A stretch of 64,000 nucleotides of DNA, taken from positions 1-64,000 of the forward strand of contig JAIBBI010000006.1 in the NCBI GenBank assembly GCA_019694755.1. Direction: 5' to 3'. Origin of the DNA: Gemmataceae bacterium (GTDB taxonomy: Bacteria > Planctomycetota > Planctomycetia > Gemmatales > Gemmataceae). Below the pieces are notes generated by a model. It saw only the letters and a list, made by a program, of their open reading frames with translations. It was not told the origin of the DNA and made no database searches. The translations under genes and the position numbers were made by a program. Shown here one piece after another: positions 19,994-55,364 of the stretch (position 1 is the stretch's first letter; every line of letters begins with the position of its first letter).

Positions 19994-21151
19994 ATGGGCT
20001 TTCTGTCCGGGCGAGTCAGCTATACCCGGTTCCGCGTCAAAGGGCGGACACCCGGCACGTTTGGGGAGGCCCACCTCGAGAAACTCGCCGATTACGCGGC
20101 CGGAAAGCAGAAGGCAGTATCCGCCGACGGTGTCGAAGTCGGGTGGGTCGCCGGCGATCACGTGCTCGATACGGAGTTTGATCTGGCCAAGAATGTGGTC
20201 AACGACGCACTGGCGTTTCAATTGCGAATCGATCAGAACAAGCCGCCGGCCGACCTGCTTCGCGCCTATACGGCCATCGAGCTGAAAGGGCTGAGCCAGC
20301 ACAATCCCAGCGGCCACCCGAGCGCGCGGCAGAAGCGCGAGGCCCGCGAGGCCGCCCGCGAACGGCTAGAAAACGACAGTAAGGACGGCCGGTTTCTCCG
20401 TCGGAAGCTCGTCGACATGATGTGGGACGGCCGGTCCAACGAGATGCTCATCTCGTCCTCGGCCGTCACGGTGCTGGATCGGCTCTATCCTCTCTTTCAC
20501 GATACGTTCAGTGCCAAGTTCGAGCCGATCACGGCCGGGACGCTGGCTTTCGACCTCGCCGAACCGCGCCAGCAGGGAAAGCTCGTCGACGACGCCCGGC
20601 CCAGTGCGTTCGTGCCGGGGCCGGGAACGGGAGACGTCGCCTGGGTGCCGGACGAAACGAGCCGTGACTTTCTCGGCAACGAATTCCTGCTCTGGCTTTG
20701 GAACTGCACGGACCGCGGCGAAGACACTTTCGGACTGAGCGACGGCAGCTCCGTGGCCGTGATGCTGGCCCGGACCCTGACGCTTGAAGACCCGCGAGGA
20801 CAATCGGGCCGTGGCAGCCTCACCAGCGACGGCCCGGCCCGGCTCCCGGAAGCCAGGCGCGCGGTCCAATCGGGTAAGCTCCCGCGCAAGTGCGGGCTAA
20901 CCGTCGTCCGACAGGCCGACCAATATGAATTCACACTCAGCGCCGAGACGCTGGGGGTGTCTGCTGCCAAGCTGCCGGCAATTGAAGGCGACAGCGAGTA
21001 CGTCCGGCGATCGGAGCGGGTCGACAAGATCCGCCATCTGATCGAAACGATGGACCTGCTTTACGACGCGTTCGGCCAGGTGCGTTGCAGCGACGGTTGG
21101 ACCAAGGAACTTCACAAAATGCAGAAGTGGCTCAGAGGCGCGGACGAGTAG
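19994..21151 (+). CDS. RdgC-like protein (tentative)
   Basis: A 385-aa soluble protein without a clear motif-based family. It begins MGFLSGRVSYTRFRVKG, has GWVAGDHVLDTEFD near residue 50, a charged stretch with ARQKREAREAARERLEND at about 115, then LRRKLVDMMWDGRSNEMLISSS and GNEFLLWLWN near 230. The order (beta start, Gly-Trp-Val, Lys/Arg-rich linker, helical turn, strand with short turn, helix) resembles the recombination-associated protein RdgC, a DNA-binding ring protein, but identity is too low for certainty by eye. The ATG follows the terminator by 20 nt and a Shine-Dalgarno-like GGAG (19981-19984) is 9 nt upstream. Confidence 0.5.
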   Translation: MGFLSGRVSYTRFRVKGRTPGTFGEAHLEKLADYAAGKQKAVSADGVEVGWVAGDHVLDTEFDLAKNVVNDALAFQLRIDQNKPPADLLRAYTAIELKGLSQHNPSGHPSARQKREAREAARERLENDSKDGRFLRRKLVDMMWDGRSNEMLISSSAVTVLDRLYPLFHDTFSAKFEPITAGTLAFDLAEPRQQGKLVDDARPSAFVPGPGTGDVAWVPDETSRDFLGNEFLLWLWNCTDRGEDTFGLSDGSSVAVMLARTLTLEDPRGQSGRGSLTSDGPARLPEARRAVQSGKLPRKCGLTVVRQADQYEFTLSAETLGVSAAKLPAIEGDSEYVRRSERVDKIRHLIETMDLLYDAFGQVRCSDGWTKELHKMQKWLRGADE

Positions 21152-51632: not shown

Positions 51633-52235
51633 TCAAAACGCCCGGCGTCCGTCCAGAGCGTCGGTGAGCATTTGGGCATTGGCCAATTCAAGCGTCGATC
51701 CCGAGGGCAAACCTCGGGCCAGTCGCGTGATCCGGACCTGGGTATTGGCGAGCAGGTTGGAGACATACAGCGCGGTGCCGTCGCCTTCCAACGTCGGATT
51801 CGTCGCGAGAATTACTTCGCGTATTTCGCCGCGTTGCACCCGGCGGAGCAGGGCGTCGGCCGTGAGCTTTTCGGGGCCGAAGTTGTCGAGTGGTGCCAAC
51901 CTGCCGCCCAACACGTGATAAAGGCCGCGATAAGTGGCAGCCCGCTCCAGCATGGCGAGATCCCGAGGAGTTTCCACGACGCAAACCGTCGAGCCGTCGC
52001 GTCGGGCGTCGCTGCAAATCCGGCACACCGCGCCTTCCGTCAGGTTGAAGCATTCGCGGCAGGGATGCACCTTTTCAATCACGTCCTTCAGGGCTGCCGC
52101 CAACATCGCGGCCACGTCGCGGTCCCCTGTCAGGAGAAAGTGCGTGATTCTCTCCGCTGACTTGGGGCCGATCCCTGGCAGCCGCGTCAGTGCCGCGGCC
52201 AACCGCTCAACTGCTCCGGCCGGCTCACTGGCCAT
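51633..52235 (-). CDS. recR: Recombination mediator protein RecR
   Basis: A 200-aa RecR. N-terminal HhH (LTRLPGIGPKSAERITHFLL), the zinc finger C-R-E-C-F-N-L-T-E-G-x-V-C-R-I-C (four Cys), the Toprim domain with VVETPRDLAMLE and ILATNPTLEGDGTALYV, and the C-terminal ITRLARGLPSGSTLELA. Works with RecF and RecO to load RecA at gaps. Its ATG shares the A of the YbaB stop (TGATG), showing tight coupling with ybaB and dnaX upstream. Confidence 0.98.
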   Translation of the reverse strand: MASEPAGAVERLAAALTRLPGIGPKSAERITHFLLTGDRDVAAMLAAALKDVIEKVHPCRECFNLTEGAVCRICSDARRDGSTVCVVETPRDLAMLERAATYRGLYHVLGGRLAPLDNFGPEKLTADALLRRVQRGEIREVILATNPTLEGDGTALYVSNLLANTQVRITRLARGLPSGSTLELANAQMLTDALDGRRAF

Positions 52236-52576
52236 CAGCTCAATCCGGGAATGGACAGGCCGGGCGGGAGGCCGATCTCCTCGGCGACACGGCGGGCCTC
52301 GTCGGCGAGCATGGAACGGACCTTTTCAAGCGCCTGGTTCGTTGCCGCTTTGATCAGGTCCTCGAGCATCTCGCGATCATGCATCGGGGCAGTGGCAGGG
52401 TCGAGGCGGAGCGAGAGAACCTGCATTTTTCCGTTGACACGCACGACGACCATGTCGCCACCAGCTTTCCCCTCGGCCGTAATCTCTCCGGCCTTGGCCT
52501 GGAAGTTGGCCATTTCTTCCTTGATGCGGGGAAGTTTGCCCATCAATCCGGCCAGGGCACTCATTTCCTTGAACAT
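52235..52576 (-). CDS. YbaB/EbfC family nucleoid-associated protein
   Basis: A 113-aa YbaB/EbfC DNA-binding protein. Pattern: MFKEMSALAGLMGKLPRIKEEMANFQAKAGEITAEGKAGG (first part helical), then VVVRVNGKMQVLSLRLDP and the C-terminal helix ALEKVRSMLADEARRVAEE. GGAGGA lies 5 nt before ATG 52576, directly after the dnaX stop. The family sits between dnaX and recR in most bacteria, as here. Confidence 0.95.
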   Translation of the reverse strand: MFKEMSALAGLMGKLPRIKEEMANFQAKAGEITAEGKAGGDMVVVRVNGKMQVLSLRLDPATAPMHDREMLEDLIKAATNQALEKVRSMLADEARRVAEEIGLPPGLSIPGLS

Positions 52577-52577
52577 G

Positions 52578-54310
52578 TCAGTCCTCCTCCGCCCAATCCT
52601 GTGCCGTTTCCGTGTCGTCGTCGATTGCCAGCACGGGGGCTGTCGCTCCGAACCCGTCGTCAACGCGGACCATTCGGGCGTCGAGATGGTCCTTCAGGCC
52701 CTGGAAGAGCGGCTGGTCGACAGTGCTCGCGACAGCGACCGTTACCGCTTCCGGCACCAATTGCGGATTGCTCTGGTCAGCCGAGGGCGGACGGATCTCG
52801 TATTTAACCGCCCACTGTTCACCCGTCAGTTTCAGCAGTGCGTCCTGCACCCGCTGAACTCGACTGGGCTCCGAACAGGTCGAATACTGACGATTGTATC
52901 CGGACGGAAACGTAATCACTAGGAGATTTGGCCCAGAAATTGCAGGAGCGGTGGCTTTCTCGAGATCGCCCCCCAGCATGGGTCCTACCGACCGAAGTAA
53001 TTCTTTCCAAATGAGTTGCAGCGAATTGGCGTTCAGAGGTTCGGCGCGGGACTCCGGCTCAGCCTCTTTTTTTTTTCCGCCTCGGTGGCGGTGGGGGTTG
53101 AGCCAATCGATGTCGCCAGCCGTTCTGCGGCCGGCATTGGCGTTCCGCCGGATTGCAACATTCCCCAGATATCACCTACGCCGAGTATCTGATCGAGCCG
53201 TGCCAGCCTCACGACCGCCATTTCGACAAGAAGGCGCGGAAACGTCGAGAATTTCAGGCGGGACTTCGTGCCGGCCAGAATATCGAGCCCGGCGAGTACG
53301 GCATCCAGGTTTGCCGTGGAGAGCACCGATTGCAGCGTGGATGTCGGGTTGGTGAGTCCCGGCGCTTCGGGCCCACAACTCTGGACGAGCATCATATCCC
53401 GCCAGAATTCGATCATCTGATCGAGCAGTTCTCCGGCCTGGACTCCTTCGGCGAGCGACTCGCTGATGGCCTCCAAAGCAACGCGGGGCTCGCGGCGCAG
53501 CACGGCTTGTGCGATTGCAGCGATCCGTTCGGCCGCGGCCGTGCCAAGCAACTTATGGACCAACTCCGGAGTCACGGGCTCGCCGAAGGAGAGTAGCTGA
53601 TCAAGTAACGATTCCCCATCGCGCATCGAGCCGGCCGCCCGGCGAGCGATCAATGCGATGGCTCCGTCGTCCGCTTCACGATTCTCTTTTTGAACGATCG
53701 ATTTCAGATGTGCGGCAATCCGCTCCGTCCGAATGGTGCCGAAATCAAACCTCTGACATCGTGAAAGTATCGTTACGGGGATCTTGTTCACCTCGGTGGT
53801 CGCGAAGATGAATTTCACCCCGGCCGGCGGCTCCTCCAAAGTCTTCAGGAGGGCGTTGAATGCCGGCGTGGTCAGCATGTGGACTTCGTCGATGATGTAG
53901 ATCTTGAACCGGCCACGCGACGGTCGGAACTGCACGTTGGCCCGCAATTCACGAACCTCATCAATGCCGCGATTGCTCGCCCCGTCGATTTCGAGTACGT
54001 CGACATCCTCGCCAGTGGCGATACTCCGACAGATCGCGCACGAGTCGCACGGGTGGGGAGTGGGCCCCTTTTCGCAGTTCAGAGCTTTAGCGAGGATGCG
54101 GGCTGTCGAGGTTTTTCCGACCCCGCGGGCGCCGGTGAAAAGGTAGGCGTGGGCCACCCGGCCACCGGACAGCGCGTTCATGAGCGCCTGGGCCGAGGAT
54201 TCCTGACCGATCAATTCTTCAAACTGCTGCGGGCGATAACGACGCGCAACGACGGTGTACTCGGCCGCTACGGCTTCCTGCGGTTCGACTTCCGGTTTTT
54301 TCTTCGCCAT
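52578..54310 (-). CDS. dnaX: DNA polymerase III subunits tau/gamma with -1 frameshift
   Basis: The clamp loader subunit. The AAA+ part shows GARGVGKTSTARILAKAL (Walker A), four zinc Cys (CEKGPTPHPCDSCAIC), DEVHMLTTPAFNALLKTLEEP (Walker B) and the SRC arginine finger (LSRCQRF). The zero frame ends at 53033, ten residues after an A10 run (plus-strand T 53067-53076), giving a 425-aa gamma-like product. A -1 shift at A-AAA-AAG continues without a stop to 52578: first EAEPESRAEPLNANSLQLIW, then the tau domain ending in the DnaX pattern LKDHLDARMVRVDDGFG, about 577 aa in all. ATG 54310 is chosen because the longer frame runs into the SRP RNA. Confidence 0.92.
53066..53078 (-). other. dnaX slippery site (A10, A-AAA-AAG)
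   Basis: Ten A on the minus strand (53076-53067) followed by G. The in-frame reading is GAA-AAA-AAA-AAG; a one-base backward slip reads AAA-GAG-GCT and opens the tau frame. A purine-rich GAGGCGG sits directly upstream and could act as an internal Shine-Dalgarno stimulator, as in E. coli dnaX. Transcriptional slippage on A10, as in Thermus, would have the same result. I see no strong downstream hairpin. Confidence 0.8.
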
Positions 54311-54365
54311 GGCGGCTCTGGCCCGATCGCCCGGGCCGGAAAACAAGGTGCCCGCGGTTCGCGAG

Positions 54366-54460
54366 AAGAGGCGCTCCCACTGCACCAAGGATCATTGTTT
54401 ATGGCTGCACCTTCCGGCCTGACCAGGTTCACAACTGCCTTGTGCGTGGAACCCCTCCCC
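54366..54460 (-). ncRNA. ffs: Small bacterial SRP RNA (4.5S-type)
   Basis: On the minus strand the segment around 54404-54431 reads as the conserved apical part of SRP RNA: ACCTGGTCAGGCCGGAAGG followed by TGCAGCC, close to E. coli ACCAGGTCAGG-TCCGGAAGG-AAGCAGCC with the GGAA tetraloop and the CAGG/GCA symmetric loop. The arms pair outward: TTGT/ACAA, AAGG/CCTT, GCAC/GTGC, CCAC/GTGG and GAGG/CCTC. Ends are approximate (about 95 nt). It lies 55 nt before dnaX, a frequent neighbour. A GGGCAAATATGCCC palindrome (54470-54483) just upstream contains an AT-rich -10 candidate. Confidence 0.9.
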
Positions 54461-54509
54461 GAGTCCCGCGGGCATATTTGCCCAGACCGGAGGGTGTCCG
54501 CGATATCCT

Positions 54510-55364
54510 TCAGCGACCCTCCCGAGTCTCGATGACAACCGAACGGATGACGACCGGTTTGACCGGTTGCACCGTTCCCTCGACATTCGGTTGCTTCGAT
54601 ATCATACGGACGACATCCAGACCCGTCTCCACGCGACCAAAGATGGTGAAATTCCCGTCCATGGCCGGCGCTTTTGTGAGTGCGACATAGAACCGGCAGG
54701 CCGCGCTTTCGGGGCTGTCGTCGTGAAACGCTCCGAGGACACCCGGCTCGTGGAGGACTGTTTCGGAGAATTCCGGCTTGAGCCAGTAGCCGAGGTGACC
54801 CACGCCGGGCTCACCTGTTCCTACCGGACAGCCGCCTTCAATCAGATCGAGTTGCGAATCCGGCGTGTCGTCACCCTGTTGATGAATGACGTGTTCGAAA
54901 ACCAGCCCGTTGTAATAGCCCGCCCTCGCGAGGCAAACGAAGTTGCGTACGTGATTCGGAGCAATCTCCGGGCGAAGCGCGACGCTGAATGTGCCCGAGT
55001 CGGTCGTAAACACTGCCCGGTAGGCAATCGGCTTACCATCGCTGGTGGTAAACCGCACGGAATCCCAGAGCTTCTGGACCTCAAGCCGGACCTTGCCCGT
55101 CGAAAGTCCAGTCATCGTGCGATCAGGCGGGAGCTGTTGGTTTCCCGGGCTTTCTTCGGTCACGGCCTCGGAAAAGGGCTGATTCAGGTTGATCTGATCG
55201 ACGTTTACAGTCGGGCGCACCGTAGCAGTATCACCCGGATTGGCAACGGAGAGCGCTGGGGTCGGCTTGGCAGAGTTGGTCGGCGACGGCGCACTTCCGG
55301 ACCCGCAACCCATGGCCGCTGCCGTCGCTACTGCCGCGAGCCAACCGTACTTGTATCCGCGCAT
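54510..55364 (-). CDS. Cyclophilin-type peptidyl-prolyl isomerase, lipoprotein
   Basis: A 284-aa protein with a lipoprotein signal (MRGYKYGWLAAVATAAAMGC). A Ser/Pro/Thr-rich spacer precedes a cyclophilin domain from about residue 115: YRAVFTTDSGTFSVALRPEIAPNHVRNFVCLARAGYYNGLVFEH in part, and later AACRFYVALTKAP and GNFTIFGRVETGLDVV. The usual catalytic Arg in FHR is replaced (FEHVIH), so activity may be low. GGGAGG is 7 nt before the ATG. It lies upstream of the SRP RNA on the same strand. A second cyclophilin in this window is part of the fusion at 31923. Confidence 0.9.
   Translation of the reverse strand: MRGYKYGWLAAVATAAAMGCGSGSAPSPTNSAKPTPALSVANPGDTATVRPTVNVDQINLNQPFSEAVTEESPGNQQLPPDRTMTGLSTGKVRLEVQKLWDSVRFTTSDGKPIAYRAVFTTDSGTFSVALRPEIAPNHVRNFVCLARAGYYNGLVFEHVIHQQGDDTPDSQLDLIEGGCPVGTGEPGVGHLGYWLKPEFSETVLHEPGVLGAFHDDSPESAACRFYVALTKAPAMDGNFTIFGRVETGLDVVRMISKQPNVEGTVQPVKPVVIRSVVIETREGR

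Follow-up and report, generated by a model that had tools for sequence, protein, structure and literature searches.

An A-run conserved in dnaX of Gemmataceae and most of their class is probably a transcriptional slippage site, with gamma in the template frame and tau in the -1 frame of one assembly

The window analysed here, a 64,000-nt stretch of DNA from a Gemmataceae bacterium, carries dnaX on the minus strand, starting with the ATG at 54310, followed in the operon by ybaB and then by a recR-like gene (Table 1). The identity of the DnaX core is clear. In the zero frame, the sequence across the A10 run reads GAG GCG GAA AAA AAA AAG, and the ten codons AGG CTG AGC CGG AGT CCC GCG CCG AAC CTC then precede TGA, so that the product as assembled ends in RLSRSPAPNL after the run. 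A sequence-only reading of the window had reported an A10 run at the end of the core, a zero-frame stop ten codons on, and the heptamer A_AAA_AAG of E. coli dnaX, all of which we confirmed. It had also described a -1 frame that stays open for some 150 residues up to ybaB; the frame does reach ybaB, but it has no stop for 162 codons, and its TGA, ending at 52578, is separated by 1 nt from the ybaB ATG at 52576. With AAG counted, stops end the two non-tau frames after 2 and 11 codons, whereas the third is open. Because neither NCBIfam nor Pfam models recognise the tau tail, we used a profile built from the tau tails of relatives, which matched the tail at 142-144 bits in the -1 frame and gave no significant match to the zero and +1 frames past the run; the tail is thus the recognisable tau C-terminus that it had been taken for. 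Insertion of one A at the run leads into the tau frame, and a transcript carrying one extra A is computed to encode a tau of 577 aa. Directly upstream of dnaX lies a signal recognition particle RNA (54323-54546, minus strand; Rfam Bacteria_large_SRP, 65.3 bits, barely above threshold).

Table 1. Features of the dnaX region in the window
Feature	Position	Strand	Basis
dnaX zero frame as assembled, gamma-like, 425 aa	53033..54310	-	TIGR02397, 433 bits; Pfam clamp-loader domains
A10 slippage run (putative), T10 on the + strand; A_AAA_AAG at its 3' end	53067..53076	-	sequence
TGA closing the +1 frame, 2 codons past the A10 run	53059..53061	-	sequence
TGA closing the zero frame, gamma stop	53033..53035	-	sequence
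Tau tail, -1 frame, 162 codons + TGA	52578..53066	-	profile of relatives' tau tails, 142-144 bits
Shine-Dalgarno (SD)-like GAGG, 3 nt before the run; may stimulate a ribosomal shift	53080..53083	-	sequence
ybaB, next in operon	52235..52576	-	sequence and position
recR-like gene, after ybaB	51633..52235	-	sequence and position

The dnaX run at 53067-53076 is the sole A10/T10 in the 5.64-Mb assembly, for which base composition alone predicts about 0.76. It is unique, it sits in the dnaX linker, and relatives have a run at the same place, which together argue that it is more than a chance occurrence. Members of the Gemmataceae share roughly 54-67% identity in the DnaX core, and the window genome is the single species of its genus in the comparison. 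A run of A9-A11 stands at the matching linker position after the conserved core in 76 of the 88 evaluable Gemmataceae dnaX genes, and the remainder consist of seven with A7, two with A8, and three without a run; the short dnaX frame of G015 is truncated by a contig end. Most other sampled families of the class also carry the run, which is present in 17 of 20 members of a second sample chosen to span more of these families. In a sister family of the same order (f2), the long A-run is absent from all seven genomes sampled (L203-L207, L022, L025), so it is dispensable there. Beyond the class, A9-A10 runs soon followed by stops in the other frames occur in some Phycisphaerae, one Verrucomicrobia, and one Ignavibacteria sequence (L062, L070, L053, L056, L067). 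A9 runs are rare in the genomes compared, and three of them (G060, G071, and G078) have no A9 other than that in dnaX.

The stops around the run are conserved as well. Both non-tau frames stop within 10 codons past the run in 80% of family members, against background rates for such double early stops of 4.5% at other core positions and 5.5% within the tail; weighted by genus, both are closed early in 25 of 31. Since a -1 ribosomal shift would need one stop only, stops in two frames suit slippage by any number of bases. Run length is conserved among the relatives, whereas the phase of the run and the base that follows it vary, and the heptamer is not kept, with many runs ending in AAC or AAA. 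Of the conserved run and frame break that the earlier reading had suggested seeking in related genomes, the A-run was found, but the tau frame is uninterrupted in nearly all of them, where tau lies in the template frame. A cultured Gemmata strain, for example, has A9 and an in-frame tau. Relatives thus show one half of the pattern that would speak against that reading, an intact tau frame, without the other half, a missing run.

Three lineages have tau outside the template frame, displaced to -1 in two of them and to +1 in the third. In the window, an A10 run places tau at -1 (tail profile, 142 bits). In G032 (L016), the run is A8 and tau again lies at -1 (169 bits), whereas two congeners have A9 and tau in frame. 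In G297 (L284), which belongs to another family, the run is A11 and tau lies at +1 (39 bits). Like that of the window, the flips in G032 and G297 may reflect an assembly error. Mixed shift direction is described by Antonov et al. (2013) as a mark of transcriptional realignment (PMC3711429), and the flips in both directions therefore favour this process.

The layout in which the zero frame gives gamma and a shift gives tau, which the sequence-only reading had presented as reversed logic, holds for the assembly as it stands, but it was already published in 2013. The main text of Antonov et al. describes 17 dnaX genes in 12 genera that need recoding for tau, nine of them with A10, and proposes transcriptional slippage for the A10 genes (PMC3711429). 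Their two-ORF dnaX genes have gamma in the zero frame and tau in the DNA-level -1 frame, and the window likewise has a zero frame that stops soon after the poly-A run with which the core closes, and a homologous tau tail at -1. The window dnaX is therefore a further case of a known type, because tau from a shift was described there. As far as visible in that main text, their species differ from that of the window, and, unlike the present analysis, the main text contains neither an analysis of stops in two frames nor a family-wide comparison (PMC3711429). The reversed dnaX layout is repeated in a 2016 review by Atkins (PMC5009743), and we found no report of dnaX slippage in planctomycetes in the open-licence literature.

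Our results suggest that the A-run is probably a site of transcriptional slippage like that in Thermus thermophilus dnaX, retained over most of the class, with gamma made from the template and tau by slippage in the window. RNA polymerase would add or drop A's at the run, producing mRNAs in all three frames. The tau frame, -1 relative to the window template, would be entered when the transcript gains one A or loses two, and the other two frames, with their stops after 2 and 11 codons, would yield gamma-like proteins. Most relatives have a template whose length encodes tau, and slippage would yield gamma; in the window species as assembled the template encodes gamma, and tau would come from slippage. 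Bacterial RNA polymerase is known to slip where at least nine A's follow one another, inserting more readily than deleting (PMC6260861). As the T. thermophilus gene studied by Larsen et al. (2000) is described in PMC1088944 and PMC5009743, it resembles the window in having a late A-run, nearby stops in the non-tau frames, and two products. It differs in that its A9 run leaves tau in the template frame, whereas the A10 of the window leaves gamma there, and in that slippage has been measured in T. thermophilus (PMC1088944, PMC5009743), whereas for the window we infer it, together with its efficiency and the reality of A10. The features of the Thermus type found here are a conserved run of at least about nine A's in the linker after the core and near stops in both non-tau frames. 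In Shigella flexneri mxiE, an unrelated gene with a run of U's, slippage also joins two frames into a long protein (PMC1088944).

The strongest of the alternatives, although an unlikely one, is an assembly or sequencing indel, the true run being A11 or A8, so that tau would be in frame, like that of nearly every relative, and gamma would arise by slippage. The prevalence of in-frame tau among relatives speaks for such an error, as do the fragmentation of the assembly into 335 contigs and the fact that any error would hit the longest A-run of the genome, and the two-frame stop pattern would persist with A11. On the other side, other coding A9 runs of the genome lie in intact frames (L224, L225, L228), which is mild support only for the run as assembled. 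The occurrence of out-of-frame tau at the same site in two other genomes, and in the 17 genes described in the main text of Antonov et al. (PMC3711429), is weak evidence as far as the window assembly is concerned. If the run length is wrong, the window dnaX becomes an ordinary member of the family pattern, with gamma as the slippage product.

Programmed -1 ribosomal frameshifting on A_AAA_AAG, with faithful transcription, is the mechanism that the sequence-only reading had proposed by analogy with E. coli dnaX, and we regard it as improbable. E. coli dnaX, like that of the window, has the A_AAA_AAG heptamer and an SD-like motif upstream, and gives gamma and tau from one gene. In E. coli, however, the shift makes gamma and operates with a downstream hairpin and a single tRNA-Lys, whereas in the window it would make tau. 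The window does have the heptamer in phase, and both it and the GAGG upstream could serve a ribosomal shift, which weighs against slippage by the polymerase, although the GAGG is nearer to the slip site than the SD-like stimulator of E. coli dnaX. Upstream SD-like motifs are moreover enriched in relatives, being found just before the run in 25 of 76 against a 6% background, or in 41% against 12-17% when a wider motif set is used. However, no association between the SD-like motif and A_AAA_AAG was seen at the genus level, and the lack of conservation of the heptamer and its phase among relatives argues against a ribosomal site. No downstream hairpin was found either at the window run (z = +0.62) or in relatives, for which z averaged -0.11 across 32 genera. 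The genome contains tRNA-Lys genes with both CTT and TTT anticodons, unlike the single tRNA-Lys(UUU) on which the E. coli site relies (PMC5009743), and both the +1 direction of the G297 flip and the closure of two frames are unexpected for a -1 shift. The variable phase and heptamer, the lack of a conserved hairpin, the tRNA-Lys(CUU) gene, and the two-frame stops thus favour slippage by RNA polymerase over ribosomal frameshifting. The heptamer noted earlier exists, but a slip of the ribosome on it is probably not the main mechanism; transcriptional and ribosomal slippage may both act. Insertion of one A into the transcript and a -1 shift by the ribosome would yield identical proteins.

A broken gene, with tau lost or its tail translated separately from an ATG at 52979 and gamma alone functional, is very improbable: the tail does contain an ORF with its own ATG and an AGGA a few bases upstream, but the tau profile match spans the tail, including residues ahead of that ATG, a Met lies at the same place within the intact tau of some relatives, no second dnaX to supply tau was found in the genome, and a slip-prone run is expected to give some fused product. 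The genome has only one further match to DnaX, a holB-like gene with a tmk-like gene as its neighbour, and hence not a second dnaX.

The need of bacteria for both gamma and tau is a matter of long-standing dispute, and in E. coli it is tau that bears the polymerase and helicase contacts. That most of a class has retained a slippage site together with stops in two frames argues for the importance of producing both gamma and tau there. Class-wide conservation with repeated frame flips is a more useful result than the window case. We are evenly divided on a wider reading, in which a poly-A slippage switch in dnaX is retained by most of the class, and on some signs in further classes and phyla, while the template frame drifts. 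On this reading, tau has left the template frame in no fewer than three lineages, one of them shifted the other way, and is supplied there by polymerase slippage. Such drift could be tolerated because slippage would feed all three frames. Species with a gamma-encoding template would then be natural tests, in which tau would come through slippage only. Automated annotation will label such dnaX genes as truncated or frameshifted.

Two further sites were considered during this work. A CT duplication downstream of the run (CTCT near 53038) is possible as the origin of the frame break in place of a change in run length; judged by eye, it would imply that the usual close -1 stop was missing in the ancestor. 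At L217 (G000 contig 54, ~20924-20932), an A9 lies at the junction between a 285-aa PhnD-like ORF and a 401-aa propeller ORF that starts in another frame. Among the other A9 runs, this one was the clearest candidate for a homopolymer error, but the site probably represents two genes, as a separate propeller ORF of ~400 aa is present in two of three relatives.
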